The notes under the pieces were generated by a model. It did no database searches and was not told where the DNA came from. It was given only the letters and a program-made list of their open reading frames with translations. A DNA stretch of 28,358 bases from a virus. This document shows positions 1,223 through 19,040 of the stretch, one piece after another. The position numbers and the translations under genes are program-made. Position 1 is the stretch's first letter. The number at the start of each line of letters is the position of its first letter. The DNA lies in IMG/VR virus record IMGVR_UViG_3300031603_000021, positions 1 to 28,358 of that record, one strand, 5' to 3'.

Positions 1223-1693
1223 ATGAAAAAATTTATTAGTGTGAAATTGGTAGATGGGGAACCTATGACCCGTGGTGATTATAACAAATACAGAGGCTGG
1301 ACTATTCCTGCTGATGAGAATCCAGAAGACCCTGGCTATTTAGTTAAGTATGAGGATGATTATATTTCCTGGTGTCCTAAAGTTTACTTTGATAAACACA
1401 CTTTACCTATCGTTGGCGAAAAGAATACTATTACTCAGGCAGATGTTGATAATTTCATTGGTTCAGCTACTGCAAATACCCTCAAAGTATTTGGTGTGGA
1501 AAAGTCCACCATACTCACTGTTGTTTTAAAGAATGGCTTTGTCATGCATGAAACAAGTTCCTGTGTGGACCCAAATAATTACAATGAGCAAGTGGGTGCA
1601 GATGTATGTATGGAAAAGATCAAGGATAGGATTTGGTTTTTACTTGGGTTCCTTTTACAGAGTGGGGTAGATGGTTTTAAGGCGGTGAAATGA
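1223..1693 (+). CDS. Gp49/Sf6 gp66-like phage accessory protein
   Basis: The protein is 156 residues from the chosen ATG at 1223, which has AGGAGA at 1210-1215. An in-frame ATG at 1178 lies inside the promoter and is rejected. The N-terminal half carries a motif set common in phage accessory proteins (MTRGDYNKYRGW, then GYLVKYEDDYISWCPK). The C-terminal half has the pattern of the N4 Gp49/Sf6 gp66 family: a conserved LKNGF, then SSCVDPNNYNEQVG and a terminal IWFLLGFLLQ. The role of that family is poorly defined. It overlaps the next gene by ATGA, so the cluster is probably one transcript. The family match rests on remembered motifs, not a search. Confidence 0.75.
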   Translation: MKKFISVKLVDGEPMTRGDYNKYRGWTIPADENPEDPGYLVKYEDDYISWCPKVYFDKHTLPIVGEKNTITQADVDNFIGSATANTLKVFGVEKSTILTVVLKNGFVMHETSSCVDPNNYNEQVGADVCMEKIKDRIWFLLGFLLQSGVDGFKAVK

Positions 1694-1875
1694 TGAACTC
1701 TGTCATGCAGTATTTTAACTATGAGCATTTGCCTGTAAAGTTACAGGAGATTAGTAAGCCAATTTGTGACATAGCTCGGGAGTACGAGAATAACCTCCCA
1801 GACAGTGCAGAGAAGAGTGCTGGATTACGTAAACTATTAGAAGCCAAGGATTGCTTGGTAAGGGCGGCGTTGTAA
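1690..1875 (+). CDS. Small helical protein, possibly Acb2/Tad1 hairpin type
   Basis: A 61-residue protein starting in the ATGA overlap with the preceding gene; AAGGCGG lies just upstream and ATG 1693 is an alternative start. It is predicted to be all helix: an amphipathic N-terminal helix (LPVKLQEISKPICDIA), a PDSAEKSAGL turn and a second helix (LRKLLEAKDCLVRAAL). The pattern S/P-x-E-K/R-x2-AL-x-KL-x-EA resembles the helical hairpin of phage proteins annotated as Acb2/Tad1 domain, which include sponges that bind immune cyclic nucleotides in CBASS and Thoeris evasion. That assignment is from memory and needs a profile search. A plain hypothetical is the alternative. Confidence 0.65.
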   Translation: MMNSVMQYFNYEHLPVKLQEISKPICDIAREYENNLPDSAEKSAGLRKLLEAKDCLVRAAL

Positions 1876-2162
1876 TGAAGACTTTAGGTAATATAGATGT
1901 CAATAGTGGCAAGAAAAACGTTAAGGATACCGTGGTATTTGGTGATGGAGATATGTTCCAATTACTGAGTAAGGCATCCAGTGAAAAAGAGGGTTGGATG
2001 GAATCCACCAAGGCCTTGGAGACTCCGGTTGGGTGTGTAATTCAAGTAACAACTCAGCAGAGGAACCCTGATGGCTCTTATGCATTGGCTGAAGCTCTTA
2101 CCTTTGTGCCTGGCGTGAGGGTTAATTCCAATGCAGCAGGTAAGAAGTTGGTGTTGATCTGA
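1875..2162 (+). CDS. Conserved small phage protein, 95 aa
   Basis: The protein is 95 residues from ATG 1875, which overlaps the previous stop as TAATG and follows AGGGCGG with a 7-nt gap. A longer reading from TTG 1851 is less likely. The sequence has a characteristic stretch GWMESTKALETPVGCVIQVT followed by QQRNPDGSYALAEALTFVPG, which I recognise as recurring in many phage genomes without known function. It looks beta-rich with no membrane segment. It sits third in the overlapping small-gene cluster upstream of terminase. Confidence 0.75.
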   Translation: MKTLGNIDVNSGKKNVKDTVVFGDGDMFQLLSKASSEKEGWMESTKALETPVGCVIQVTTQQRNPDGSYALAEALTFVPGVRVNSNAAGKKLVLI

Positions 2163-2437
2163 TGGCTACTGAAGAGGGTCCTAATCTGTGTAAGTGCTGT
2201 GCTACTAATCTTGAGATATTCCCTAAAGTAACATGTAAAGGAAATCCTTTTAGTGAAGGTAATTGTAAGACTGAGTGTAGCAGGTATATGACAGAAGAGG
2301 ATAGTGAAAACATACTGTCTGTTGTTTTTAGGTATCCCGATGAACATAGGGCTGTCAAAAAACTGGAAGATGCTCTTTTTTGGCTGAAGCATAGTATTCG
2401 AAAAAGAGAAAGGGAGAGAGTCAGATGCAACCAATGA
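2162..2437 (+). CDS. Cys-rich small protein with KLEDA-type helical tail
   Basis: The protein is 91 residues, starting in a TGATG overlap with the preceding gene. The N-terminal half has six cysteines (C10, C12, C13, C24, C34, C38), suggesting a small zinc-binding or disulfide fold. The C-terminal half is helical with EHRAVKKLEDALFWLKHSI, similar to the KLEEA-x-W motif in Acb2/Tad1 hairpin proteins, and ends in a basic RKRERERVR tail. It is therefore the second candidate of that type within 500 bases. It overlaps the terminase small subunit by 13 bases. Function is unproven; the motif may be coincidental in a charged helix. Confidence 0.65.
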   Translation: MATEEGPNLCKCCATNLEIFPKVTCKGNPFSEGNCKTECSRYMTEEDSENILSVVFRYPDEHRAVKKLEDALFWLKHSIRKRERERVRCNQ

Positions 2438-3102
2438 CAGAGAATGAATTTAAAGAAGCTCTACCTGTAGAGTTTAAGAAGTCAGTTAATCCTATATTGA
2501 TGAAACAGGTTAATGGTATTTTGGCTGATCCAGAAACCATGCAATATTTTAGGGAGAATCTACTTAGCTATACCAGTGTAATGAAAGAGGGTAGATTTAA
2601 GACCAGTCAGTACATTAATGCTATTAGGTACGTAAGTTTTAAGTTATTTGGTGCATCTAATAAAGATGCATATGCAAAGACTTTCCCTGAGAAGATGGTG
2701 TATTACAAGAAGCAAGGAACATCATCTAAGGACATTGCCAGCTATTCCACTGCGTATAACAAAACCAAGTTAGTGAATCTTATATTTGCCCAGACAATGA
2801 TTCCTGTGCATATTTTGAATGCTTCTACTTTTCAGGCAGCATTAAACGTTCAGGCTGGATTGATGATGACAGCGTATTCAGAGAAGGTTAGGTGTGATGC
2901 AGCAGATAGTGTATTGAAGCACCTTAAACCTCCTGAGATAAAAGCTCAGGTTGAGTTGGATATTGGTACTCGTCAGGATAAGACTCTTGATATACTTAGA
3001 GATACTACCTCTGCTTTAGTTAATCAACAAAAAGCAATGATGCGTCAGGGTACGTCGGTTAAGGATATTGCTGAAGGAGCCTTAATTGTCGTTAACTCTT
3101 AA
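2425..3102 (+). CDS. terS: Putative terminase small subunit
   Basis: A 225-residue, mostly helical protein immediately upstream of and overlapping the large terminase gene, the usual place for the DNA-recognition subunit of the packaging motor. I see no diagnostic motif, so the call rests on position, size and helical character. The N-terminal part (EFKEALPVEFKKSVNPILMK, then an FRENLLSY segment) may hold the DNA-binding region, and the C-terminal 60 residues (LDIGTRQDKTLDILRDTTSA onward) look like an oligomerising coiled coil. The start at 2425 is preceded by GGGAGAG. Confidence 0.6.
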   Translation: MQPMTENEFKEALPVEFKKSVNPILMKQVNGILADPETMQYFRENLLSYTSVMKEGRFKTSQYINAIRYVSFKLFGASNKDAYAKTFPEKMVYYKKQGTSSKDIASYSTAYNKTKLVNLIFAQTMIPVHILNASTFQAALNVQAGLMMTAYSEKVRCDAADSVLKHLKPPEIKAQVELDIGTRQDKTLDILRDTTSALVNQQKAMMRQGTSVKDIAEGALIVVNS

Positions 3103-4735
3103 GGAGAACTTGGCTACGCTTGTTGAAGAGTTGGTTGAAGATGAGGAGCGTGTTGTTAACCAGAAAAGCGTAGAGGATTGGTTGAGAGATATCAGTTATG
3201 AGGAAGATCCTAACTATATGCCTACGGATTTTGCTTTGGAGTTTGTCAATTTTATTAAATTAGTGAATGGTGATAGTGGTGAGGAGAATGTCACTCCTGT
3301 AGTCCATTACAAGATGTTGGATAACATTCAGCATAATGACAAAGACACAATTAATATGTGCCACCGTGGTGTAGCAAAAACCAGTGTTCTTGGTACTTAT
3401 TTGATACTGTATTGTGCTGTATATGGGGATATTCCTGGATTCGGTAAAGTACCATATGTTTTGTATGTATCTGATGCGGTAGAGAATGGTATTAAGAAGA
3501 TGAGGAAGGATTTAGAGTTTAGGTGGGATAACTCTGAATTCCTTCAGGAGTGGTTACCACACAAGCGACTCACAGATGTGAGATGGGAGTTTGCAAATAA
3601 GGATGGTGTGTATTTTGTCTGTAGCGGGCACGGGGCCAAAACAGGCGTGAGAGGTACCAGAGAGTTGGGTACTCGACCATTACTTGCGATACTTGATGAT
3701 TTAATTTCTGATGATGATGCTCGTTCCCCTACTGTTATTTCTTCTGTTGAGGACACAGTTTATAAGGCAGTGGATTACGCATTACACCCAGCCAGGAGAA
3801 AGATTGTTTGGAGTGGTACACCATTTAATGCAAAGGATCCGTTGTATAAGGCAGTTGAGTCTGGTGCATGGCATGTAAATGTGTACCCAATTTGTGAGAA
3901 GTTTCCTTGTAGTCGTAAAGAGTTCAGAGGTTCCTGGGAGGACAGATTTAGTTTTGATTATGTACAGAAGCAGTATACTAAAGCCTTATTGTCTAATAAG
4001 ATAGACACGTTCAATCAGGAGTTGATGTTGCGTATTATGTCGGAAGAGGATCGGTTAATTACAGATGATGAGATTATATGGTACAGCAGGGACCTGTTGA
4101 TCCAAAACAAAGACGCATACAATTTCTACATCACTACTGATTTTGCAACCAGTGATAAGCAATCGGCTGACTTCTCAGTAATATTCGTTTGGGCATACAA
4201 TGCTAAAGGACAGTGGTTTTGGGTAGATGGTATATGTAAGAAACAGACCATGGATCACACCATGAATGATTTGTTTAGGTTGGCTCAGAAGTGGGATCCT
4301 CAGCAAGTAGGTATTGAGATCAGCGGCCAACAGCAGGCATTTATTCCTTGGATTCAGGATCAAATGATGGTACGTAAGATATGGTTTAATCTTGCGAAGG
4401 ATAAAGATCAGACCAAACCTGGGATCAGACCAAACACAGATAAGATGAAAAGATTTAATATCGTTGTTCCTTGGTTCAAATCCGGAATGATATTCTTCCC
4501 GCGTGAAATGAAATTGATGCCAATTATGGGTGAGACCGTTGATGAGTTATCGTTGATATCACTTAAGGGGATGAAAAGTAGAAATGATGATACCAACGAT
4601 TGTGTATCAATGTTAGCCAATTTATCACCATGGAGACCAAGTGAACAATTACCTCTTCCAGAAGAAGAACTAAATATGTGGGAGACAGAATCAAAAGATA
4701 GTGGTATAAGTGGAATTGATTCGTATACTCCTTAA
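3086..4735 (+). CDS. terL: Terminase large subunit
   Basis: The packaging motor ATPase/nuclease, 549 residues. The start is TTG 3086, supported by GAAGGAG at 3073-3079; it overlaps terS by 17 bases. Visible motifs are an adenine-site/Walker A variant CHRGVAKTS (92-100), a Walker B LLAILDDL with acidic D204/D205, and a coupling motif WSGTPF (242-247). The RNase H-like nuclease core shows D352 in TTDFATSD, E411 in GIEIS and acidic residues D501, D502 and D505 in the RNDDTNDCVS stretch. The HRG-x-AKT/S form of Walker A is typical of N4-like and related podovirus terminases. Complete and intact. Confidence 0.93.
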   Translation: MSLTLKENLATLVEELVEDEERVVNQKSVEDWLRDISYEEDPNYMPTDFALEFVNFIKLVNGDSGEENVTPVVHYKMLDNIQHNDKDTINMCHRGVAKTSVLGTYLILYCAVYGDIPGFGKVPYVLYVSDAVENGIKKMRKDLEFRWDNSEFLQEWLPHKRLTDVRWEFANKDGVYFVCSGHGAKTGVRGTRELGTRPLLAILDDLISDDDARSPTVISSVEDTVYKAVDYALHPARRKIVWSGTPFNAKDPLYKAVESGAWHVNVYPICEKFPCSRKEFRGSWEDRFSFDYVQKQYTKALLSNKIDTFNQELMLRIMSEEDRLITDDEIIWYSRDLLIQNKDAYNFYITTDFATSDKQSADFSVIFVWAYNAKGQWFWVDGICKKQTMDHTMNDLFRLAQKWDPQQVGIEISGQQQAFIPWIQDQMMVRKIWFNLAKDKDQTKPGIRPNTDKMKRFNIVVPWFKSGMIFFPREMKLMPIMGETVDELSLISLKGMKSRNDDTNDCVSMLANLSPWRPSEQLPLPEEELNMWETESKDSGISGIDSYTP

Positions 4736-4746
4736 AGGAAAAACAG

Positions 4747-5445
4747 ATGGTATTACAAGAATTGTTCGATGAACTGGCAACCGGGGAGTTCTCCAATTTA
4801 GCGATTGGTAATTCCATTAATGGTTCAATTGAACCCGATGCTTACAAGAAGGTGATAACACAAATCAATGGTGGCTTGCGGGAAATCTACAAGAGGTTTT
4901 TGTTAAGACAAAAAACACTACTCATTGCTCGACCACTTGGTACGACTGAACATTTTCTGAGGGATGCCAATACAGCTATTACTGTGAGTGTAGAAGCGGA
5001 AGGTGAGACTCCTACAGTTGCTGATCTTTGTCGGGTGATAGATGTTTACGATCCGTTGGAAGAAACACTTGTTTACCTGAATGACCCAAACCAACCATTA
5101 AGTGTGTTTACCAAAGGGCATGACCATATAATCATAAAGGACCCACTTCCGGTAAACTTAGGTGTTGTGTATCAAGCCTACTATCCCAGGATTGTTTTAA
5201 CGGAAACTTTTAACCCTGAAGAGTATGTCCTGTATTACCCTGAATATATTTCTTATGCCTTAAAGTGTTATGTGGCTTCGGAACTATTCACTGGTAAAAC
5301 ATCCAAGGCAACTGAGGGTGAGGCTCAAATCTATAACACTTTTCATGGTAAATTTGAAAAGGCATGTAGACTTATTGAAGACAAGGGTTTTGCAGAAGAT
5401 GTCACTATTGAGAATAGTAAATTTGTAGATGGAGGATGGGTATAA
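4747..5445 (+). CDS. Head-tail connector/adaptor-like protein
   Basis: A 232-residue protein 11 bases downstream of terL, with AAGGA before ATG 4747. The N-terminal half is helical (ELFDELATGEFSNLAIG, then a YKKVITQINGGLREIYKRFL helix), followed by a beta-rich middle and a C-terminal helical segment with many aromatics (LYYPEYISYALKCYVASELF). The pattern of an N-terminal LATGE-SNL segment and an INGGLREIY-RF helix resembles podovirus adaptor or tail-tubular-A-like proteins that join portal to tail. The match is to general family appearance; a neck protein of another type remains possible. Confidence 0.6.
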   Translation: MVLQELFDELATGEFSNLAIGNSINGSIEPDAYKKVITQINGGLREIYKRFLLRQKTLLIARPLGTTEHFLRDANTAITVSVEAEGETPTVADLCRVIDVYDPLEETLVYLNDPNQPLSVFTKGHDHIIIKDPLPVNLGVVYQAYYPRIVLTETFNPEEYVLYYPEYISYALKCYVASELFTGKTSKATEGEAQIYNTFHGKFEKACRLIEDKGFAEDVTIENSKFVDGGWV

Positions 5446-5840
5446 TGGTTCCAGGTAACTATGACATGACCATCTTTAAAGGTGGTACATTCGCAATCAC
5501 AATGTCTGCTAAGAATAAGCTTGATATGCCTATGAATTTTAATAACTACGATGAGATTCGTATGCAGATAAGACCCACTTGGGCAAAGTCTCCATACACC
5601 GAAGAAGCCTTGATGGATCTAACTGTTGCTAACGGTAGGATTGTTATACCTGGTGATGGTTTGTCTTTATCATTGAATATTGATGCCGCAGATACTGAAG
5701 TAATAACATTCAAAGATGGTAAGTATGGCCTTGAATTAATCAAGTATGTGGACCTTACAGCTAATCCAGAAATTCCTGTAGAGATTGTAGATAAGTTCTT
5801 TACGGGTTTGATTGCTGTTGTAGGCGAGGTGATTGAATGA
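5445..5840 (+). CDS. Small beta-rich virion protein, probable tail
   Basis: The protein is 131 residues from ATG 5445, which overlaps the upstream stop as TAATG and lies 9 nt from GGAGG (5431-5435). The in-frame ATG at 5436 abuts the ribosome site and is rejected. The opening NYDMTIFKGGTFAITM followed by a YDEIRMQIRP segment is the pattern of small beta-sandwich proteins found before phage tail-fibre genes (BppU N-terminal-like). It overlaps the next gene by ATGA, so it is translationally coupled to the fibre. An exact role, such as a fibre attachment adaptor, is inference. Confidence 0.6.
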   Translation: MVPGNYDMTIFKGGTFAITMSAKNKLDMPMNFNNYDEIRMQIRPTWAKSPYTEEALMDLTVANGRIVIPGDGLSLSLNIDAADTEVITFKDGKYGLELIKYVDLTANPEIPVEIVDKFFTGLIAVVGEVIE

Positions 5841-7492
5841 GTGACGAAATTGTAATTGTAGAGGTGGAACCAACCAGTGTAGATGTGCTTGCTGATACAG
5901 GTACTCCTATAGTAACAATTACAGATGACACAACCGGTTTAGTGTCAGTTGTAGACGCATCACCTGTAGTGGCTACTTTGGTGGATGAAAGACCTATTGT
6001 AGTGGTTCGTACTGGTAGTGGTGGATCCATGGATCTTTCATCTATTATGACTATGCTTACAGGACGGTTAACTACAGGTCATATGGATCCAAATCTGTAT
6101 AGTGATTTTAATATGTTACGAGATCTTTGGGCAAGAATAGGTACTGATCTTCTTCTTACTTATCCGGAAGGTGTAGCCATTCAGGAGGCAGGAAGATCAT
6201 ACACAACCCAGTCGATTACGGATGCAGTTAATGACATAACAGTTTCCACCGATGGGAAGATTGAGGCTAACACCACTTTGGTTCAACAGACAGAGTTGGC
6301 TATTACTCAATCGGTGAATCAATTCAAGCAGGATACAAATGGTACTTTTTTTACACATGACACCAGGATTACCCAGACAGCCGCCGAAATTGCAAGTACT
6401 GTTCTCGCCTTGGAAAGTACTGATGGTCTTGTTAGTTTGGCTCGATCTGATATTGATCAAAATGCAACTAATATTGATCTTAAAGTTACCCAACAACAAG
6501 TTGATGAAAGTGGTACTATAGTTACTCTTGGGTCAAGAATCTCCCTTACAGAAGCAACCATTGATTTGGCTGTTGAAGCTTTTGATGAAACCACTGGGCG
6601 TGTATCTGCTGCTGAAATTGCAATTGAAAGTAATGCAATTACTTTATCTGCCAGTAGCCAGTATTTGTCTCAGAAATTAGAAACTGTACAAACCATTCTG
6701 GATAACCAATGGGGTGTAACCGTTGAAGAAGATATTAACGGAAATTCTTATGTCGCTGGTTTTAGTTTACTTTTACACCCTACATGGGCTTTAGGTGAAG
6801 GTTATGATGTAGATGATACTGTTTATTTCTATACTGATGGTGCTGATAAGGCATTTGAGTGTATACTTACAAATATCGGTGATATCACAAATTCTCCCAG
6901 TAACGCCATTTATTGGACTGAAATACCAGGTGGGGCCAAATCAGTATTCACAGTTAATGCCGAACAGTTTCAAGTTACTGGACCTAATGGTGGTCCTGTT
7001 CCTTTGTTTCTGGTAGATGGTGTAACCAATGCAGTTACAATTAATGGTGCCCTTGTTGTTCAACTTATTAAATCTGATACTTGGGAAACTCGGGAAACTA
7101 CAGGTGATTCTGCTTTTAAATTAGATCCAGAAACAGGGCTTGCAGAATTTGTCAATATGATGATGACATTCTCTAATGGTACTGCTAAAACTGATGCACA
7201 AGCTGCTTTAGATATTGTTCCGATACTCTTTCTTTGGGAGGGTGACGAACCAATAAATCTCCAGACAACCATTGTCGGAGCTGATGAATGGCTCTTTGAT
7301 GGTGGGTTAGACGGTGGGTGCCTGATCCAGCTTGAAATTCCTGATGCTTTTGAGGGTATACTTGACGTTGCCCTGAATGGGGAAAATTTGATAGTAACAG
7401 ATTGGGAGAGTGGAAGTCTTATAGATGAGGTGGCCCAGGTAATTGATTTGAATGAAGAAGGTGAAACGATAGATTTAGGGGGATTAGTCTAA
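5837..7492 (+). CDS. Tail fibre / host-specificity protein with CBM-like module
   Basis: A 551-residue fibre-type protein. Residues 1-60 are beta-rich and valine-rich. Residues about 120-290 are a long helical, Thr/Ala-rich region with repeated DITVSTDGKIE and TQTAAEIAST-like segments, as in the central and C-terminal helical parts of lambda gpJ-like proteins (DUF1983 type). Residues about 316-362 (HPTWALGEGYDVDDTVYFY through SPSNAIYWTEI) match the W-x-GxxYxxxDxVxY ... YW pattern of chitin-binding type-3/CBM5-12-like modules. It continues into FTVNAEQFQVTGPNG, also typical of gpJ tails. Coupled by ATGA to the previous gene and abutting the next. Confidence 0.8.
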   Translation: MSDEIVIVEVEPTSVDVLADTGTPIVTITDDTTGLVSVVDASPVVATLVDERPIVVVRTGSGGSMDLSSIMTMLTGRLTTGHMDPNLYSDFNMLRDLWARIGTDLLLTYPEGVAIQEAGRSYTTQSITDAVNDITVSTDGKIEANTTLVQQTELAITQSVNQFKQDTNGTFFTHDTRITQTAAEIASTVLALESTDGLVSLARSDIDQNATNIDLKVTQQQVDESGTIVTLGSRISLTEATIDLAVEAFDETTGRVSAAEIAIESNAITLSASSQYLSQKLETVQTILDNQWGVTVEEDINGNSYVAGFSLLLHPTWALGEGYDVDDTVYFYTDGADKAFECILTNIGDITNSPSNAIYWTEIPGGAKSVFTVNAEQFQVTGPNGGPVPLFLVDGVTNAVTINGALVVQLIKSDTWETRETTGDSAFKLDPETGLAEFVNMMMTFSNGTAKTDAQAALDIVPILFLWEGDEPINLQTTIVGADEWLFDGGLDGGCLIQLEIPDAFEGILDVALNGENLIVTDWESGSLIDEVAQVIDLNEEGETIDLGGLV

Positions 7493-8488
7493 ATGGCATT
7501 AGCTAAAAAAGCAACAGCATTACAAATCCGAAGTGGGACAACTATAGAGACCGATTCGTTTACGGGTCTGAAGAGTGAAATCACTATTGACACAGACAAG
7601 AAGGCTATAGCTGTTCATGACGGTGTAACTCCTGGTGGTTTTATTGTTGGGGAAGCACAAACACTTGCAACAGAAGCAGATGTACTACTCACGCATGCAG
7701 ACGTTGTACTTACACACGCCGATGTTGAACTCACGCATGCAGACGTTATATTAGCAGAGGCTGACAAAGTACAAACTGGATTGGACGCAACAGCGACTGC
7801 CGCTGATCTGGTACAAACCAATCAAGATACCCTTGATACTGCCGCTGATGTTCTTTCTATTGCAGAATCAGAAGCAGCAACCGCAGCAGATGTTGTATTG
7901 ACGAATGCTGATGTTCTTTCCTCCGAAGATTCCAATTTAGAGGCAAATGACTGGGCAAACAGAGCAGAGGATTTATTGACCAGGACGTTTCTTGATGGCG
8001 TAGGGACAAACAGGGCAGCAGGTAATTATTCAACTCTCCATTGGAAAGCTAAAACAGTCGCAGATAAGTTATTGACTGATGCTGACAGCGCACAGACTGC
8101 TTCAGATCGGGTTGCTACCGCAGCAGATAGGGTGGTGACATCCCAGGATGCCTTAGACACAGCAGCGGATGTGGAGCTTACTAATGCAGATGTAGTGTCT
8201 ACTAACGCCGATGTTGTTACTTCTGGTGCAGCAGAGTTAGCAGCAGAGTTAGCAGAGACTAATGTCGCAGCAGATTTAGTTCTTACAAATGCAGATGTGG
8301 TTTCAACAAATGCAGATGTGATTTTAGCTGGGATTGCGGAGACCGGGTCGTTAGGTTATAGTAATGCCTCGGCAGCAAGTGCAGTACAATCGGCAGAAAG
8401 TGCGTTGGAAACTTCTCATGATCTTGATGGTGGAGTTGCCAGTTCAATATATTCAATAGGACAAAGTATAGATGGAGGAGGTGCGTAA
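7493..8488 (+). CDS. Tail fibre with Mtd-like head and heptad-repeat shaft
   Basis: A 331-residue protein starting directly after the upstream stop, with AGGGGGA at 7477-7483. Residues about 8-52 (LQIRSGT, then ITIDTDKKAIAVHDG and TPGGF) resemble the N-terminal attachment domain seen on Mtd-type phage fibres. Residues about 60-150 and 190-285 are runs of 7-residue units of the LTHADVV, LTNADVV, DTAADVL kind, predicting a trimeric coiled-coil shaft. The first three units are encoded by near-identical 21-nt repeats (about 7687-7749). It ends in a Ser/Ala-rich stretch without a receptor domain, and the DGR target gene begins 2 nt after its stop. Confidence 0.8.
   Translation: MALAKKATALQIRSGTTIETDSFTGLKSEITIDTDKKAIAVHDGVTPGGFIVGEAQTLATEADVLLTHADVVLTHADVELTHADVILAEADKVQTGLDATATAADLVQTNQDTLDTAADVLSIAESEAATAADVVLTNADVLSSEDSNLEANDWANRAEDLLTRTFLDGVGTNRAAGNYSTLHWKAKTVADKLLTDADSAQTASDRVATAADRVVTSQDALDTAADVELTNADVVSTNADVVTSGAAELAAELAETNVAADLVLTNADVVSTNADVILAGIAETGSLGYSNASAASAVQSAESALETSHDLDGGVASSIYSIGQSIDGGGA
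7687..7749 (+). repeat. 21-nt coding repeats for heptad units
   Basis: Three consecutive 21-nt units encode LTHADVV, LTHADVE and LTHADVI. The first and third share CTCACGCATGCAGACGTT exactly; the middle copy uses different synonymous codons. More degenerate units continue downstream within the gene. Confidence 0.7.
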
Positions 8489-8489
8489 A

Positions 8490-10115
8490 ATGGCTGAGCG
8501 TATACAAATAAGACGAGACACAGCAGCTAATTGGACTAATGTAAATCCAGTTTTGGCTGATGGTGAGTTAGGTTGGGAAACGGATACGGGTTATATAAAA
8601 GTAGGAGACGGGACAACGGTATGGACAAGTTTATTATATATGATAATACAGGTAGATGATGCAGCGTATGGTGCTGGTTGGAATGGGGAAGCATCTTTAG
8701 CCCCAAGTCAAAATGCTGTATATGATAAGATTCAGACTTTAGCGTTAGCCGGTGTTAACCCCGACATAACCAGTATGACTAATCTTGATGATGGTGGGAT
8801 ACCACAGTCAGCAATAGCCTATACCGGGATAAATGACATAGGTATTGCAGGCAAGCAAGGATTCGGGGTAGGGATATGCCCTGCCGATCTTCTCCCCCCA
8901 GGAATGTCAGAGATGGCAGGAACACGCATTACTGGGCATGATGATTATGGAAATTATCAGTTTCAAGACGGATCAATTGATTGTTATGTACCTATACACT
9001 ATATCAAAATCGGGTCAGGATTAAATGGCATACCAGTTAATCAATTTTCGACAGTTAAATACTTAGCTTTTGTGGATGAAACCGAAGCGAATACAGCAGG
9101 TTATTTTATACCAAGATGTTTTATTGATGGCGGATCAGTTCAAATGGGATACTTTGTGGACAAGTATGAAATATCCAAGAATGCTTGGGGAACAGGTTTT
9201 ATTGGCAGCTCAATTAAAAACGGACTGCCTATTTCTACCGCATCGACTCACAATCCTATTGCAGACTTGACGGCTTGTGCTGGTAATTACTACTATGAAA
9301 TGATTAATGCCGCCCATGCCCGAGATGGTGTTGATGGTGCTGTTAATGCTAACTCGAATTGGTTTGAAACATCCCGGTTTATTCACGTCAACCTTGCTAT
9401 GCTCTCAATGGCCCACGGCCAGGCAGCTTCTGCAACAACTTATTGCGCATGGTACGACGGTGCTGGGGTAACTAACTATCCTAAAGGCTGTAATGATAAT
9501 GCCTTGGGTGATGTGGATGATGGAACGGTACTGTACATTACTGATGGATATTCTAACTGCGGGAAAACGGGTTCAGGTGTTCCTTTTGCCAAGACAACTC
9601 ATAACGGGCAAAATTGTGGTGTTGCAGACTTAAACGGTAATATGTATGAAATTTCTATCGGCGTGACTTCTGACGGTACAGATTATTTTGTTGCCAATGA
9701 ATCAACGGCGATGAAGGATTTTACCGCAGGTAACTCTGGTGCTACTGATCACTGGGGGGCCACTGGTCTCGCTGCAATGATGACAGCTTTTGATATTCCT
9801 TATATGGCAGCGGGGGCTTGGGTCTATATGGGCTCTGGAACAAATCAAGTTCTATCGGAAGCATTAACCGGAAATGATGCTGTGCTTACTTCTTTAGGGC
9901 TACCAAAAGATTCTGGTGGGTATGATGCTACGGGTACTAATCAATTTGGTAAAGACGGAATGTATCAGTATCAATTGAGAAATGAACTATGCGTGCTATC
10001 CGGTTTGGCTTGGAGCGGCGGGTCCTCTGCGGGCGTTTGGGGTTCCCCTTGGAGCAGCGCTCGCGCGCTCTCGAACTACATCCTATCGGGCCGCTTCGCC
10101 TGTTACCCTGTATAA
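8490..10115 (+). CDS. DGR target: hypervariable fibre/receptor-binding protein
   Basis: The protein is 541 residues from ATG 8490, which is 7 nt from GGAGGAGG (8475-8482); an in-frame ATG at 8472 lies upstream of that site and is rejected. Residues 4-48 (IQIRRDT, LADGELGWETDTGYIKVGDG, then TTVW) form the Mtd-type N-terminal domain that anchors fibres. Residues about 140-541 have features of the C-type-lectin/FGE-sulfatase fold used by many DGR targets: PRCFIDGG, GYFVDKYEISKN, HNPIADLTACAGNYYYE and NGQNCGVADLNGNMYEIS. The last 40 residues are the variable repeat, with changes from residue 503 on, ending GRFACYPV. The DGR would diversify this presumed receptor-contact surface. Intact, with avd following at 35 bases. 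Confidence 0.93.
   Translation: MAERIQIRRDTAANWTNVNPVLADGELGWETDTGYIKVGDGTTVWTSLLYMIIQVDDAAYGAGWNGEASLAPSQNAVYDKIQTLALAGVNPDITSMTNLDDGGIPQSAIAYTGINDIGIAGKQGFGVGICPADLLPPGMSEMAGTRITGHDDYGNYQFQDGSIDCYVPIHYIKIGSGLNGIPVNQFSTVKYLAFVDETEANTAGYFIPRCFIDGGSVQMGYFVDKYEISKNAWGTGFIGSSIKNGLPISTASTHNPIADLTACAGNYYYEMINAAHARDGVDGAVNANSNWFETSRFIHVNLAMLSMAHGQAASATTYCAWYDGAGVTNYPKGCNDNALGDVDDGTVLYITDGYSNCGKTGSGVPFAKTTHNGQNCGVADLNGNMYEISIGVTSDGTDYFVANESTAMKDFTAGNSGATDHWGATGLAAMMTAFDIPYMAAGAWVYMGSGTNQVLSEALTGNDAVLTSLGLPKDSGGYDATGTNQFGKDGMYQYQLRNELCVLSGLAWSGGSSAGVWGSPWSSARALSNYILSGRFACYPV
9989..10102 (+). repeat. DGR variable repeat (VR)
   Basis: Aligned without gaps to the template repeat 565 bases downstream (10554-10667). 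Of 114 positions 25 differ, and every difference is at a template adenine: 12 A to G, 9 A to C, 4 A to T. Ten of the 35 template adenines are unchanged. Homology fails at 10103 on the right and before 9989 on the left. It forms the 3' end of the target gene, with the stop codon at 10113-10115. Confidence 0.97.
10084..10098 (+). other. Probable IMH (initiation of mutagenic homing) segment
   Basis: The 15-base GC-rich block TATCGGGCCGCTTCG at the 3' end of VR is identical to TR 10649-10663. Just beyond it the two differ at 10099 and 10102 and then diverge completely. A GC-rich invariant block at this position is where target-primed cDNA integration is thought to start in studied DGRs. Confidence 0.75.
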
Positions 10116-10131
10116 GGGTGCGATAGCACCC
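10116..10131 (+). promoter_or_regulatory. DGR target hairpin with GATA loop
   Basis: GGGTGC (10116-10121) pairs perfectly with GCACCC (10126-10131) around GATA. It begins at the base after the target stop codon and 13 bases after VR. A short GC-rich stem with a GRNA-type tetraloop just past VR is known from phage DGRs as a hairpin/cruciform that promotes retrohoming; GATA fits. It has no T-run, so a terminator is unlikely, and avd follows directly. Confidence 0.8.
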
Positions 10132-10150
10132 GGCTATAAGGAGTTAATAT

Positions 10151-10537
10151 ATGTCCGAACCTGCTCTTAACAGAAAATTTATGGAGACAATGAAATTGTT
10201 GAATGTATACCTAAATCACTTTCCATCCCATGAAAAATACGCACTGTCAAATCAGATCAGAAAAACAGCGTATAATTTATATGATTTTATCACTGAAGGG
10301 CAGAAAAGATATTACAAAAAGACCACCTTAACAAATTTAGATATCAATCATGAAAAACTAAGAATGCAAATTTACTTGGCGTATGAACTGGGATATTTCA
10401 ATTTTAAAGATGGTAAGAATTCTAAAAAGAACATTGAAAAGAGAAGATTTACAGCCATTTCCAGGCGAGTAGATGAATTAGGAAAAATGATTGGCGGATG
10501 GATAAAAAAGATTAAAGAGCAAAACCAATGGAAATAA
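10151..10537 (+). CDS. avd: DGR accessory variability determinant (Avd)
   Basis: A 128-residue, basic, all-helical protein with AAGGAG at 10138-10143. Avd is a small four-helix-bundle protein that forms a pentameric barrel, binds the DGR reverse transcriptase and template RNA and is needed for retrohoming. Matching features are the size, high lysine/arginine content and four predicted helices: residues about 4-23, 27-52, 65-82 and 92-123. They include KYALSNQIRKTAYNLYDFI and HEKLRMQIYLAYELGYF, the latter a typical Avd third-helix pattern. The position between target gene and TR is canonical. Confidence 0.9.
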   Translation: MSEPALNRKFMETMKLLNVYLNHFPSHEKYALSNQIRKTAYNLYDFITEGQKRYYKKTTLTNLDINHEKLRMQIYLAYELGYFNFKDGKNSKKNIEKRRFTAISRRVDELGKMIGGWIKKIKEQNQWK

Positions 10538-10553
10538 AGGGAATGCCATTAAC

Positions 10554-10667
10554 ATGCGTGATATCCGGTTTGAATTGGAACAACAGGTCCAATGCAGGCG
10601 TTTGGAGTTCCAATTGGAACAACAATCGCACGAACTCGAACAACAACATATCGGGCCGCTTCGACTA
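10554..10667 (+). repeat. DGR template repeat (TR)
   Basis: This is the invariant copy, between avd and the reverse transcriptase. Read in the target frame it contains 12 AAC/AAT codons (for example NWNN and NSNNN), the standard design for maximum diversity. All 25 differences from VR are at adenines here. TR is followed by 137 bases before the RT start, close in length to the spacer of the BPP-1 template RNA, which primes cDNA synthesis. The whole avd-TR-RT interval is on one strand. Confidence 0.97.
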
Positions 10668-10804
10668 CAATACCTCAAACCCAGAACCTTGGGACAGTGG
10701 AATTACAGGGATGGTGTTTCCTGCATTATGCGAAATCAACAAGACATGCGTTTTTGGTAGGCCTTTATGGTTCGAAGATCAAGCATGTTTAAATCGGGGG
10801 TAAT
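10668..10804 (+). ncRNA. Spacer part of the DGR template RNA
   Basis: The 137 bases between TR and RT contain no supported gene. In the well-studied Bordetella phage DGR the equivalent spacer of about 140 nt folds, binds RT-Avd and provides the priming site for cDNA. By position this stretch should have the same task. I cannot fold it reliably by hand, and the RNA ends are unknown. Confidence 0.5.
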
Positions 10805-11833
10805 TTGAAACGAGTAGGAAATTTGTTTGAAATTATATTCAGCAGAGAAAATCTTTATCAAGCATACATTGATGCCCGAAAAGGTAAACGGAAAAAGCAG
10901 GCGTGTTTTAATTTTGAAACATCCCTTGGCAGTAATCTGGAATCTTTATATGTAGAAATCCATAGCGGGGGTTACCAACCAATACCCTATAAGAAATTTA
11001 TAGTGTATGAACCAAAAGAACGCATAATTTACGCACCTGCGTTTCGGGACACAGTAGTACAGCATGCTATTTATCGGGTTGTTTATCCAATTTTCGACAA
11101 GACTTTTATTGATCAATCTTTTGCATGTCGGAAGGGCAAGGGAACCCATTTATGTAGTCAACAGACACAAAAGTATATGAGATCATGTAGAGACGATGAG
11201 TATACACTGAAGCTTGATATACGGAAATTTTTCTATTCAATTAATAGAGCAATTCTCAGAAAATTAATTGAAAAGGAAATTAAAGACCAAAGATTGGTTG
11301 ATATTATGATGCTATTTGCGGAGATGGATGCCTTAATTGGTATTCCTATCGGCAATCTGCTAAGCCAGTTATACGCATTAATTTTTATGAACCCAGTGGA
11401 TCATTTTATCAAGCGTATACTTAAGATCAAAAAGTATGTTCGGTATGTTGATGATTTTATTTTGATTGGGCTTACACGGGACCAATGTCTTAAATACCGG
11501 GAAAGAATAATTGAATTTATTGATAAAGAACTGAAATTGAGATTATCAAAATCAACAATTCAGAAAGTCAAGAAGGGCTTGAATTTTGTGGGCTACAGGA
11601 CATGGAAATCAAAGAAGTTTATTCGGAAATACAGTTTATACAAATTTAGAAAAATGGTGAAACAAAACAATCAAGCTGCTACAGTATCAATTTTGGGGCA
11701 TGCAAAATACACTAATTCAATTTTTTACATGTTTAGCATTTTAGAGGAGATTAAAAATGATATTAAAATACCAAAAGGCTTTAGAAATTTTCGACGACAG
11801 GCACTCAACAACCTACACTCTCAGAGAACCTGA
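10805..11833 (+). CDS. DGR reverse transcriptase
   Basis: A 342-residue RT, the mutagenic polymerase that misincorporates at template adenines. The start is TTG 10805 after a GGGGG run; the resulting MKRVGNLFEII is a typical DGR-RT beginning. Motifs in order: RT-1/2 region KFIVYEPKERIIYAPAFRD (64-82), QSFACRKGKGTH (104-115), catalytic D138 in LKLDIRKFF, motif 4 IPIGNLLSQ (180-188) and catalytic YVDD (214-217). A downstream LNFVGYRTW (259-267) follows. The I-G-x3-SQ form of motif 4, in place of QGxxxSP, separates DGR RTs from group II intron and retron enzymes. All catalytic residues are present. The gene end overlaps the next by 77 bases. Confidence 0.97.
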   Translation: MKRVGNLFEIIFSRENLYQAYIDARKGKRKKQACFNFETSLGSNLESLYVEIHSGGYQPIPYKKFIVYEPKERIIYAPAFRDTVVQHAIYRVVYPIFDKTFIDQSFACRKGKGTHLCSQQTQKYMRSCRDDEYTLKLDIRKFFYSINRAILRKLIEKEIKDQRLVDIMMLFAEMDALIGIPIGNLLSQLYALIFMNPVDHFIKRILKIKKYVRYVDDFILIGLTRDQCLKYRERIIEFIDKELKLRLSKSTIQKVKKGLNFVGYRTWKSKKFIRKYSLYKFRKMVKQNNQAATVSILGHAKYTNSIFYMFSILEEIKNDIKIPKGFRNFRRQALNNLHSQRT

Positions 11834-12215
11834 CTACCAGGAGGACGATCCTCGCTGCACTGAGCTTTGCACAATAGGAGAAGACACTTATGTACATGTG
11901 CCTGACAGTGTTATTCTACCGGTCCAGCCGGAACAAATCACATTCTCAACCGTAACTCTTACAGATGCACTCAAGGCAGAGATCAAAGCGTTGTCTCCTC
12001 ATGTTCAACTGTCATACTCCAGGCTCCAAGAGCGTATCAGGACAAAATATAATATAGAAGACGAGCAATATATTACACGTATTTCGGTTGGAGATTTATC
12101 CGGAACATATGTGATGCACGATGATGAGCCTGGATTGATCACAGTGTACCAGGCCTGGGTAGAAGAATGCAGAGAAATTGCCAGGTTGGAACGTGTTGGA
12201 TTAGGTTTGGGTTAA
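11757..12215 (+). CDS. Hypothetical tail-region protein overlapping the RT
   Basis: A 152-residue protein whose start (ATG 11757, GAGGAG at 11744-11749) lies inside the RT gene, giving a 77-base overlap in another frame. The C-terminal part has DALKAEIKALSPHVQLSYSR, then RIRTKYNIEDEQYITRIS and YQAWVEECREIARLERVGLG. A pattern of this kind (residues in VQL, a Y-x-I-x-DE segment, a final Y-x-x-x-ECR helix) occurs in small phage proteins near tail-fibre genes. I know no function. The overlap suggests translation coupled to the RT message. Confidence 0.7.
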   Translation: MILKYQKALEIFDDRHSTTYTLREPDYQEDDPRCTELCTIGEDTYVHVPDSVILPVQPEQITFSTVTLTDALKAEIKALSPHVQLSYSRLQERIRTKYNIEDEQYITRISVGDLSGTYVMHDDEPGLITVYQAWVEECREIARLERVGLGLG

Positions 12216-12241
12216 AGTAAAAAACTAACAGGAGCTGAAAA

Positions 12242-12265
12242 ATGACTAATGGACTGGACAGATAA
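12242..12265 (+). CDS. Possible 7-aa minicistron MTNGLDR
   Basis: A short reading frame with AGGAG at 12230-12234 and a 7-nt gap to the ATG. It ends 15 bases before the next gene start. It could be a translation-coupling leader or the relic of a gene end. No homology can be judged at this length. Confidence 0.25.
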   Translation: MTNGLDR

Positions 12266-12280
12266 TTAGGAGTTGAACCA

Positions 12281-13243
12281 ATGAAGACAATAACAGTTTT
12301 TGCTAAAAATCTACAGAAGACAGGGAACTCCTTGAAGATATGGTCGAGGGGCAGTACACCTGTAAGCATAACAGGTATTAAAGTCTTTCAGTCAGAGGAA
12401 GCTGGGGAGCTCGCAAAAATGTCTGCTCCTCATTCCCTTGAGTATGCTGCGGTGAATGCAGGGTCGGTCAATACTCTGGCGAATATCGTAGCAGCAGCCT
12501 ATGCACAAGCTAAGGCAGATGCAGCCGAATTAGCAGCCAAAGGGCATACAGAAGCCTGGAGTGACTATGGCGCTGATGTGACCGGCTCTAATATCGCATT
12601 ATCTGTGGTAGACCAAGGAACTCTTGCTTTACTTAATGAAATTAGCAAGAACGAGCTTGACACTACTGTTATTGAAGCCGGAAAAATAGCAACAGGTCTT
12701 GTGGTTGCTAATTCAATAGTTGGTAATTCTATCACAGCTACCCAAATAGCAGCCAATACAATTACCGCAAGTCAGATAGCAGCCAATGCCATTACAACAT
12801 CAGAACTCGCAGCCGGTTCAATTACTGCTGCAAAAGGGCAGATAGCAGACCTTGCTGTTACTACAATAAAAATTGGCGCACATGCAGTTACGATTCCTTT
12901 GTATACTTCAACAACAAGTGTCAGAAACGGAGCGCCCAGCAATTACGCCTGGGAAACTGTTTTATCTGCAACGGTCGCTCTTAGTTCGGCTGGCGAGTTG
13001 GCTGCTTGGGGTATGGTAGATTTAGAGTTTTGGGATAATGTTGCTTGGGGTGTGAGAATTTTAATTAACGGCACTCAAACAGGGATAGTAACCAATGGTG
13101 GTGGTATGCAAAATGCCGTGCCCGTAGTAGGAGCAAGAACATGTAATGCAGGTAATCGAACAGTTTTAATACAATGGTACGGCCCCACGACTCACATTCG
13201 ATTTAATGCAGCGCACATGGTAATACAAGGAGCTTACAGATAA
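12281..13243 (+). CDS. Tail fibre-like protein with 10-aa repeats
   Basis: A 320-residue protein; TTAGGAG precedes ATG 12281. Residues about 55-110 are Ala-rich helical (coiled-coil-like). Residues about 145-190 hold four 10-residue repeats: NSITATQIAA, NTITASQIAA, NAITTSELAA and GSITAAKGQI. Repeats of this kind are common in the shaft of gpJ/host-specificity-type proteins. The last 110 residues are beta-rich with many Trp and Gly residues and probably form a terminal knob domain. It may be a second receptor-binding fibre beside the DGR-diversified one; no variable repeat is visible in it. Confidence 0.75.
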   Translation: MKTITVFAKNLQKTGNSLKIWSRGSTPVSITGIKVFQSEEAGELAKMSAPHSLEYAAVNAGSVNTLANIVAAAYAQAKADAAELAAKGHTEAWSDYGADVTGSNIALSVVDQGTLALLNEISKNELDTTVIEAGKIATGLVVANSIVGNSITATQIAANTITASQIAANAITTSELAAGSITAAKGQIADLAVTTIKIGAHAVTIPLYTSTTSVRNGAPSNYAWETVLSATVALSSAGELAAWGMVDLEFWDNVAWGVRILINGTQTGIVTNGGGMQNAVPVVGARTCNAGNRTVLIQWYGPTTHIRFNAAHMVIQGAYR

Positions 13244-13846: not shown

Positions 13847-16018
13847 ATGACTGAAGATACAACTATAAGCACAGAGACAACTAAACTCCAGCCTACATGG
13901 GCGAATGAGCCTACGGTGGAGAACCTGAAACTTGACCTGGACAATGCAGATCAAGATCAGGATACACATAATTGGAATGTTGAAAGATGGCTCAACAACC
14001 TCATGGTTACTGGTGCTGCTAAACCCAAGACAATCAAAGGAAGGTCTTCCATTGCTCCTAAATTAATTAGGAAGCAAGCAGAATGGAGATATCCTGGTTT
14101 GTCTGAACCTTTTCTTAGTTCTCCTGATATATTTAATGTTCTGCCCACTTCTTCTGGAGATAGGTCTAGGGCACTACAGAACTCTCAGGTGCTGAACAAT
14201 CAGTTTAATCATAAGATTGATAGAGTTGCTTTTATTGATGAGTACACTCGTGATATGATAGATATTGGCACCGTTATTTGTAAAGTGGGTTGGCTAACTG
14301 AAGAAGAGGAACGCACTACAATAATTCCTGTTTATCAGTTTACACCTGCAACTGATCCAGAACAGTATCAGCAAGTAGCCCAACAATACACACAACTTGC
14401 TCAATTATACACTGAGAACAAGGACCTCTTTTATGAGTATTCTAATCCTGGTATTGAGCAGGCTATCCAGATATTCATGACTACAGGTCAAATTGTTATT
14501 CCTGAGCAAGTAGGTGAAGAACCTGAAACAAAAATAGTTGAAACTGTTAATCAACCAACAGTAGAAGTATGTATATCAGCCAATCTGATTATGGATCCGT
14601 CATGTAATGGTGATTTAGATAAAGCTAATTTTGTTGGTGAGAAGTTTAAGTCAAGCCTCTCTGATTTGAAGAAGGACGGTAGATACACAAATCTTACTAA
14701 AATCAATGCATCAGATGTAGATCCCATTGCTAATCCGGATTATGAGGAAACCAAAGATGTTGAGTCATTTGGTTTTACCGATGAAGCACGGAAACAATTT
14801 GTAGTACATTCTTATTATGGTCATTGGGATATTGACAATTCTGGTATAACTAAACCTATTGTTGCTTTTTGGGTCGGAGATGTGATGATTAGATTGGAGG
14901 AGAATCCCTTCCCAGATAAGAAACATCCTTATATTAGTGTACCCTACATGCCCATGCGTAAATCACTATTCGGTGAGCCTGATGGTGAGTTGCTCTTTGA
15001 AAATCAACAGATTATTGGGGCAGTTACACGTGGTGCAGTTGATCTGATGGGTAAGGCAGCCAACGGTCAGACAGGTTTTAAGAATGGTTTACTTGATGTA
15101 ACTAACCAGCGTAAGTTTGATCGTGGTGAACACTATAAGTTCAACTCCAATGAGGACCCAAGACAGGGAATTCACACACATACCTATCCTGAAATACCTG
15201 GTTCAGTATTTAACATGATCACCATGCAAACCAATGATGCCGAAAGTATGTCAGGTGTTAAGGCCTACAGTTCAGGAATCACTGGTGCTTCCCTCGGTGA
15301 GTCAGTAAGTAATGGTAGGAGCGCCCTTGATGCAGCTAGTAAACGTGAGATGAGTATTCTTCGTAGAGCAGCTTCTGGTATAGTCAAGATTGGGCATAAA
15401 TTCCTTTCTATGAATGCCGAGTGGTTATCTGAAGAGGAGGTTGTCAGAATTACTAATGAGAAGTTCGTTACTGTACGTAGAGATGACTTGGCTGGTCACT
15501 ACGATTTGACACTCACTATCTCCACTGCTGAGGAAGATAACAAACAGGCAGAGGAACTTGCCTTTATGCTCCAGACAGATGTCAATATGGACCCGGATAT
15601 GCGTAAGATGTTATTGGCTGATATGGCTCGACTCAGGAAGATGCCTGATATGGCTAAGAAGATTGAAGAATATCAACCACAGCCTGATCCAAAAGCTGAG
15701 ATGAAGTTTGAACTTGAGATGAAGCTACTTGAAGCACAGATTGCTAAAGAACAATCACTCGTTGCTAAACATCATGCTTCTGCAGAACTTAATGGAATGC
15801 AGGAAACCAGAGAGATTAGCCAGTCAGGATTGAATACCGCTAAGATAGCAACTGAACAGGCAAAAGCAAGGGATCTCGGTAGTACTGCAGATGGTAAAGA
15901 TTTAGATTTTATTGAGCAGGAGGCAGGTGTACACCAAGAAAGAGACTTGCAGAAAATAGAACATAGTGCTAAGGTTAAGCCTAAAGAGGCATCTAAGCCT
16001 AAAACAAAAACCAAATAA
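13847..16018 (+). CDS. Portal protein
   Basis: A 723-residue portal, the dodecameric ring at the head vertex through which DNA is packaged and ejected. Evidence is its size, position upstream of scaffold and capsid, and features common to large podovirus portals. Those are an N-terminal WNVERWLNNL segment, KTIKGRSSIAPKLIRKQAEW, an SSPDIFNVLP strand and YTRDMIDIGTVICKVGW. A central ENPFPDKKHPYISVPYMP clip-like segment precedes LLFENQQIIGAVTRGAVDLM. The C-terminal 130 residues (about 600-723) are a charged helical barrel/tail rich in Gln, Glu and Lys. The gene is intact and follows its own promoter. Confidence 0.88.
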   Translation: MTEDTTISTETTKLQPTWANEPTVENLKLDLDNADQDQDTHNWNVERWLNNLMVTGAAKPKTIKGRSSIAPKLIRKQAEWRYPGLSEPFLSSPDIFNVLPTSSGDRSRALQNSQVLNNQFNHKIDRVAFIDEYTRDMIDIGTVICKVGWLTEEEERTTIIPVYQFTPATDPEQYQQVAQQYTQLAQLYTENKDLFYEYSNPGIEQAIQIFMTTGQIVIPEQVGEEPETKIVETVNQPTVEVCISANLIMDPSCNGDLDKANFVGEKFKSSLSDLKKDGRYTNLTKINASDVDPIANPDYEETKDVESFGFTDEARKQFVVHSYYGHWDIDNSGITKPIVAFWVGDVMIRLEENPFPDKKHPYISVPYMPMRKSLFGEPDGELLFENQQIIGAVTRGAVDLMGKAANGQTGFKNGLLDVTNQRKFDRGEHYKFNSNEDPRQGIHTHTYPEIPGSVFNMITMQTNDAESMSGVKAYSSGITGASLGESVSNGRSALDAASKREMSILRRAASGIVKIGHKFLSMNAEWLSEEEVVRITNEKFVTVRRDDLAGHYDLTLTISTAEEDNKQAEELAFMLQTDVNMDPDMRKMLLADMARLRKMPDMAKKIEEYQPQPDPKAEMKFELEMKLLEAQIAKEQSLVAKHHASAELNGMQETREISQSGLNTAKIATEQAKARDLGSTADGKDLDFIEQEAGVHQERDLQKIEHSAKVKPKEASKPKTKTK

Positions 16019-17528: not shown

Positions 17529-19040
17529 ATGGTAGCAATTTATGGTGATGGATCCAATAGCTCTATTGGAGTACAACTAACCGAGCATTATTGGTGGAAG
17601 AAAGCCCTTATTGATTTGGTTAAAGAACGGTACTTTGGCAACCAGGCCAGTACTATCAATATGCCCAAAAACATGGGTAAGAAGATTAAACGGTATCATT
17701 ATCTGCCCTTGCTGGATGATGCCAATGTAAATGACCAGGGTATTGACGCCAATGGTGTAACCGTAGATAACGATTATGTGGAAACCTCTATTGTTGTTAG
17801 AATGGTTGACGGTGCAGTTCCTGACATTCCTCCTTACTATGGTCCTGCTTCTGATTTTGCCGTGTATTTTGTCGGTATTGGTGCTACTGCAGAAGATGCA
17901 GAAGATGACGCTGCTGAAAAGCTTCGTCAGTTCTTTGTTGGTACTGTTGCAGGTGGTGGACTTGGTTTGGTAGCTGCTGATGAAGCTGCTGTCATTACCG
18001 CAATGGCTCCCGCCGGTGGTGCCTATATACTGGGTTTCCGGTTCTTTAATACCGATGGTGACGAGATTGCAACTACGGCTACTCTTAGCGCAGTAGCAGT
18101 TCCGCATTCTGGTAATCTTTATGGTTCCAGTAAGGATATTGGTACTATTGCCGGGAAAATGCCCACATTGACTGAGGTTGGTGGCCGGGTCAACAGGGTT
18201 GGTCATAAGAGAATTGACTTGGAAGGTACGCTTGCCAAGTTTGGTTTCTTTGATGAGTATACTCAGGAAAGTCTGGACTTCGATACTGATGATCAGCTTC
18301 TTTCTCATATCTCACGGGAAATGCTTCGTGGTGCTAATGAGATCACAGAAGATGCCCTTCAGATTGATTTACTCAATGGTGCAGGTGTTATTCGGTTCTC
18401 TGGTGCTGCAACTGCCTTAACGGCTATGTCGGGTGTGGCTGCTTCTTTGACTGAGGTAAATTACTCTGATCTGAGTAAATTGTCCATTTCCTTGGATAAC
18501 AACAGATGTCCCAAAGCAACCAAATTGATCTCCGGGTCAAGAATGGTTGATTCCAGGACAGTTGCTGCTACCCGGTTGATGTATATTGGTTCCGAAATGC
18601 AGACTACTTTCGAGAAGATGAAAGATCATTTTGATAATGCAGCATTTATCCCTGTACAAAACTATGCTGCTGCTGCAGACATTCTTAATGGGGAGACCGG
18701 TACTGTTGGTCACTTCAAAATCATTGTCGTTCCTGAGATGATGCATCATGCAGGTATTGGTATTGCTGAAGGTGTAAATGCTGGCTACCGTGTAACTGGT
18801 GGTAAGTATGATGCGTATCCCATGCTAGTAATCGGCGATGAAGCCTTTACTACAATTGGTTTCCAGACATCTGGTAAATCTGTGAAGTTTAAAATCTATC
18901 ACAAGAAACCGGGTGAGGGCATGGCAACCAGGGAAGATCCTTACGGTGAGCTTGGGTTCATGAGCATCAAGTGGTATTATGGTTTTATGCTTTTGCGCCC
19001 CGAACGCCTCGCGGTGACCTGGTCTGTCGCACAATGGTAG
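17529..19040 (+). CDS. Major capsid protein, N4 gp56 type
   Basis: A 503-residue shell protein with GAAGGA and an 8-nt gap before ATG 17529. Features recalled from the N4 gp56 family are the early KKIKRYHYLPLLDDANVNDQ segment, a long beta/extended region, and RVNRVGHKRIDLEGTLAKFG. A domain rich in MSGVAASLTEVNYSDLSKLS and the C-terminal WYYGFMLLRPERLAV strand follow. An unusual insertion (about residues 110-185; Ala/Asp-rich, with DAEDDAAEKLRQFF) may form an extra surface domain. A strong terminator follows 43 bases after the stop, as expected for the most highly expressed head gene. Confidence 0.88.
   Translation: MVAIYGDGSNSSIGVQLTEHYWWKKALIDLVKERYFGNQASTINMPKNMGKKIKRYHYLPLLDDANVNDQGIDANGVTVDNDYVETSIVVRMVDGAVPDIPPYYGPASDFAVYFVGIGATAEDAEDDAAEKLRQFFVGTVAGGGLGLVAADEAAVITAMAPAGGAYILGFRFFNTDGDEIATTATLSAVAVPHSGNLYGSSKDIGTIAGKMPTLTEVGGRVNRVGHKRIDLEGTLAKFGFFDEYTQESLDFDTDDQLLSHISREMLRGANEITEDALQIDLLNGAGVIRFSGAATALTAMSGVAASLTEVNYSDLSKLSISLDNNRCPKATKLISGSRMVDSRTVAATRLMYIGSEMQTTFEKMKDHFDNAAFIPVQNYAAAADILNGETGTVGHFKIIVVPEMMHHAGIGIAEGVNAGYRVTGGKYDAYPMLVIGDEAFTTIGFQTSGKSVKFKIYHKKPGEGMATREDPYGELGFMSIKWYYGFMLLRPERLAVTWSVAQW

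Follow-up and report, generated by a model that had tools for sequence, protein, structure and literature searches.

N4-like phages are a large podovirus family. The diversity-generating retroelement (DGR) of BPP-1, a Rauchvirus and not an N4-like phage, is arranged as mtd-VR-avd-TR-brt; a tail lectin carries the variable repeat (VR) at its C terminus, and a GRNA-loop hairpin follows the target gene. For phage DGRs, Guo et al. gave a consensus for this loop, and hairpin stems of 7-10 bp have been reported (PMC3240598). Among isolates, the closest counterpart of the locus described here is in Pseudomonas phage Bise (OR683401), which has a contractile tail and baseplate genes. A recent Schitoviridae study sought a DGR in its own phage and found none (PMC13220884), and in PMC13001222 DGRs are just mentioned. 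No DGR in an N4-like phage was found in the literature and collections that we searched; few papers name both, and absence there is not proof.

We analyzed a stretch of 28,358 nucleotides (hereafter the window), positions 1 to 28,358 of the IMG/VR virus record IMGVR_UViG_3300031603_000021, and we read it, at a probability of about 0.95, as carrying a canonical, probably active DGR among the tail genes of a Schitoviridae-like phage, uncultured and related to E. coli phage N4. The preliminary description of this DNA had claimed a complete DGR in canonical order on one strand, and this holds: target, hairpin, avd, template repeat (TR) and reverse transcriptase (RT) all lie on the plus strand with open frames, in the order known from BPP-1. 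The parts and their immediate neighbours are:

7493-8488, plus strand: Mtd_N-bearing tail fibre protein without a VR, directly upstream of the target (context)
8490-10115, plus strand: DGR target, a tail/receptor-binding protein of 541 aa with Mtd_N at the N terminus and the VR at the C terminus
9989-10102, plus strand: VR; 25 of 114 bases differ from the TR, each at a TR adenine
10086-10098, plus strand: probable IMH core, the G+C-rich 3' end of the VR, same in the TR (TCGGGCCGCTTCG)
10116-10131, plus strand: hairpin GGGTGC-GATA-GCACCC with a 6-bp G+C-rich stem, directly 3' of the target stop codon
10151-10537, plus strand: avd (accessory variability determinant), Pfam bAvd (PF22296) at 60.7 bits, cut-off 40
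10554-10667, plus strand: TR; read in the frame of the target, 12 of its codons are AAY
10805-11833, plus strand: DGR RT of 342 aa with a TTG start and the motifs GIPIGNLLSQ and YVDD
11757-12215, plus strand: small gene of 152 aa overlapping the 3' end of the RT gene, without PHROG or Pfam match

The locus resembles that of BPP-1 in gene order and strand logic, in the Mtd_N adaptor, in Avd, in the placement of the VR and in the GRNA-loop hairpin, and it differs in that its RT is only 34% identical, its hairpin stem is 6 bp and its target lectin is nearer to TaqVP than to Mtd (Z 31.6 vs 13). Bise is closer in sequence (RT 57%, avd 65% identical), has a VR/TR pair with 9 adenine-only changes and shares the hairpin stem GGGTGC/GCACCC, there around a GGTA loop, but apart from its different tail its target falls outside the lectin family of the window. 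The assignment of avd is further supported by a match to the PHROG family 'Avd protein of DGR' (1.6e-17), while against NF033474 it scored 68.3 bits, slightly below the cut-off of 80; an accessory protein of the Avd kind is thus present.

A gapless alignment of 114 bases between TR and VR had been claimed from inspection by eye. When recomputed, it ran from VR 9989-10102 to TR 10554-10667 at an offset of 565, and it returned the same 25 mismatches. These comprise 12 A>G, 9 A>C and 4 A>T changes and are confined to TR adenines, and all 79 non-adenine positions of the TR are identical in the VR. The TR has 35 adenines, and the probability that 25 randomly placed mismatches would all fall on these is 1.8e-17. 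Over the 101-base TR core, the VR matched 70/70 non-adenine positions, whereas the next-best site in the window on either strand matched 35/70. The locus therefore has a TR/VR pair that differs only at template adenines. In the target frame these adenines are found mostly at the first two codon positions (17, 14 and 4 at positions 1, 2 and 3), no TR codon can be turned into a stop codon by an A-to-N change, and the number of protein variants encodable through them was computed to be ~10^19.

The target begins with the Pfam Mtd_N adaptor (4.4e-17) and its C-type-lectin domain starts at about residue 119. Modelling of the full-length protein was poor (pLDDT 57.8) and was superseded by a model of the C-terminal 423 residues (119-541) built from 71 relatives, which reached a pLDDT of 93.9, and on this model the VR is borne by a C-type lectin. 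Its closest fold is TaqVP (5vf4), the DGR variable protein of Thermus aquaticus (Z 31.6, 294 residues, 2.8 A), although identity over the aligned part is 18%; Mtd variants (Z 13), a Treponema variable protein and formylglycine-generating-enzyme folds follow. The target would act in host recognition. In the majority of related loci the small gene at 11757-12215 neighbours the lectin target, whether the DGR is present or absent, and its product is perhaps a dedicated tail assembly helper or folding partner of the lectin. The fibre protein encoded upstream at 7493-8488 contains a repetitive stretch of the ADVVLTHADV type.

The GATA loop of the hairpin fits the published GRNA consensus, although its 6-bp stem is shorter than those reported (PMC3240598), and folding was weakly better than that of shuffled sequences (z -1.9). 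Under a strict test that required a stem of at least 3 bp, 12/31 relatives were positive, since in many of them the stem below the loop motif is shorter, and we therefore used the motif CGRTAG instead, which was found 15-27 bases 3' of the VR in 29/30 related DGR loci as compared to 3.4% of shuffles. The G+C-rich 3' end of the VR at 10086-10098 is, on the analogy of BPP-1 (PMC3240598), the probable IMH core, so that a putative IMH is followed by a GRNA-loop hairpin, as in other DGRs. If the locus works as BPP-1 does, the RT and Avd would reverse transcribe a TR-containing transcript, random bases would be inserted opposite the template adenines, and the VR, which forms the 3' end of the tail protein gene, would be overwritten with the mutated cDNA. 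The G+C-rich end common to both repeats and the downstream GATA hairpin would guide this step. In the resulting phage population the receptor-binding tip of the C-type lectin would carry varied residues, and no variant would have a new stop codon.

The closest relatives of the DGR, contigs L002/L003 and L004-L007, keep the gene order including the downstream gene (RT 75-86%, avd 74-92%, target 62-75% identical). In this DGR lineage, two pairs of contigs from different metagenomes are nearly identical. L002 and L003 differ at 6 of 11,372 shared bases, and 6/6 are in the VR at TR adenines while the TR itself is unchanged. Between L006 and L007, 24 differences were counted over 5,092 aligned sites, of which 20 fall in the 117-base VR, and 20/20 of the latter are at TR adenines. 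The RTs of the two pairs are 86% and 75% identical to that of the window. The excess variation at VR adenines that had been proposed as a check is thus present, in the contigs of near-identical relatives rather than in reads of this phage. These sequence comparisons show recent activity in close relatives, and the DGR of the window is probably active now.

The surrounding genes place the DGR in an N4-like genome:

3086-4735, plus strand: terminase large subunit, phrog_38 at 1.4e-92, 55% identical to SP-076 TerL
13847-16018, plus strand: portal protein of N4/Schitoviridae type, phrog_1216 at 2.6e-213
17529-19040, plus strand: major capsid protein of the N4-gp56 family, TIGR04387 at 288 bits

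The capsid had been described as N4 gp56-type, which the TIGR04387 score (cut-off 60) bears out, and the location of the DGR between the fibre and portal genes of an N4-like structural module is likewise supported. The portal is 51% identical to Schitoviridae portals. The order phrog_2109, terminase, virion protein, portal, tape-measure-like protein, capsid and following genes is that of Salmonella phage FSL SP-076 (Schitoviridae), with near-equal spacing of the shared genes, and the DGR sits where SP-076 has tail spike and lysis genes. N4-type portal, major capsid protein and terminase large subunit are thus all found in the order of the family. At 503 aa the capsid is long against the 324-position model, with ~105 residues (roughly 82-186) beyond the SP-076 capsid, which perhaps form an inserted surface domain. 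The window ends inside an ORF (26339-28357) for which no PHROG match was found; 66 of its residues match the SP-076 vRNAP region (E 3e-4), and from this similarity it may be the start of a virion RNA polymerase. The record, a 28 kb viral contig, is probably a fragment; the whole genome would be expected to measure about 70 kb.

How common such an arrangement is among N4-like phages was examined from several sides. RVT_1 is present in 0/80 of the contigs that are closest by their N4-type portal (many are fragments; 43/80 hold both terminase and portal), and recognisable Schitoviridae, judged by name and size only, were absent among the RT-bearing phage records listed (~100 of 158). On these two results we reject the idea of the DGR as a family-wide N4-like trait. 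A nucleotide search with window positions 8000-13000 gave no match among phage records. Contig L144 has an N4-type portal with the lectin and its partner gene but without a DGR. L188 has a capsid of the N4-gp56 family and an intact DGR (1295-8992) with the same lectin family; it was ruled out as a second N4-like case because phrog_334 is a far better fit for its capsid than phrog_1357, the family of the window capsid, and its remaining genes belong to a podovirus of another type.

Neither an N4 capsid nor an N4 portal was found in the contigs that carry the closest relatives of the DGR. L002 instead encodes a tail tape measure of 1,590 aa, and L019 has tape-measure and other tail genes of long-tailed phages. 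Since it is phages lacking N4 genes that carry the closest copies, the lectin and DGR look like a horizontally exchanged module. The target region common to relatives mostly starts near residue 103-118, past the adaptor, and the first 50 residues of the target share 68% identity with a lectin-free Mtd_N tail protein of the N4-like contig L110. The adaptor therefore looks N4-derived while the lectin and DGR look shared with other phages, and a recombination event behind the adaptor probably brought the module into the N4-like genome. Modular DGR targets and intragenic recombination have been suggested earlier (PMC8144416); a statement of horizontal movement of DGR cassettes was not found in PMC6642488.

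Relatives also differ in how much of the cassette they keep. Full-length avd and RT accompany the target lectin in 47 distinct contigs, 12 distinct contigs have the lectin and the equivalent of the 11757-12215 gene without avd or RT, and in 5 (L136, L145, L153, L161 and L181) only fragments of RT or avd lie between an intact lectin target and the partner gene; the fragment calls are based on tblastn and may include assembly errors. The remnants point to repeated loss of avd-TR-RT. The preliminary description had foreseen neither this loss nor that the nearest kin of the module would lie outside the N4 lineage. We hypothesize, at what we judge to be even odds, that lectin and DGR move as a unit between tail types (long-tailed, other podoviruses, Schitoviridae) behind a lineage-specific adaptor, and that avd-TR-RT is later deleted once a useful lectin has been fixed, leaving lectin and partner gene.

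Three other explanations were weighed. The RT could derive from a group II intron or retron, with the repeat a coincidence, and the best-scoring NCBIfam model for it is indeed the group II intron RT family (TIGR04416), at 117.8, far below the cut-off of 300. The RT also has matches to RVT_1 and to the reverse transcriptase family of PHROG, and its best solved relative is a DGR RT (8ub7, 6.7e-53), with group II RTs next at 2.4e-21. In a tree of 23 RTs (19 DGR-side rows, three group II RTs and the phi3 RT) it grouped with the DGR RTs of BPP-1, Bise, crAss, VHML, BalMu-1, hankyphage and Nostoc, its immediate sister being L002, and with 100/100 support the DGR side separated from the phi3 RT and the group II RTs, which answers the question of clade raised in the preliminary description. 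It is thus a DGR-clade RT, and in motif 4 it has SQ where group II RTs have SP. Retron RTs were compared through family models only. Together with a TR/VR pattern that chance does not explain, this leaves the group II or retron reading with a vanishingly small probability. In several relatives, L002, L006, L021 and L023 among them, the RT frame is open upstream through the TR to avd, which is not so in the window.

That the DGR looks intact but is inactive, with a fixed VR, would fit the relatives that lack the cassette (12) or keep remnants of it (5, vs 47 with full avd and RT) and the shortish hairpin stem. All open frames and RT motifs are, however, intact, TR and VR would diverge without homing whereas 79/79 non-adenine positions are identical, and close relatives were recently active, so we consider decay unlikely. 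The other concern is that the DGR module of another phage was misassembled onto an N4-like contig. The junctions rest on a single assembly, because the DGR is not covered by any other contig from this species; the sister contig L009 begins just upstream of its own portal and so cannot confirm the junction, and the nearest DGR relatives lie in contigs without N4 capsid or portal. Against this, the target is one open frame that joins the L110-like N terminus to a lectin matching other phages, the N4 genes on both sides of the insert keep the order and nearly the spacing of SP-076, and base composition runs without a break at 36-45% G+C throughout, which makes a chimera very improbable.

Taken together, our results describe a DGR of known kind, built from standard parts, in an N4-like phage; what is new is the Schitoviridae-like host lineage and the evidence that the module is exchanged and the cassette lost, and the interest lies in that lineage and in the exchange. 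The finding means that a receptor-diversifying module reaches N4-like phages, and its relatives, in which the cassette is intact, partly deleted or gone, provide a graded series for studying how hypermutation is gained and lost.
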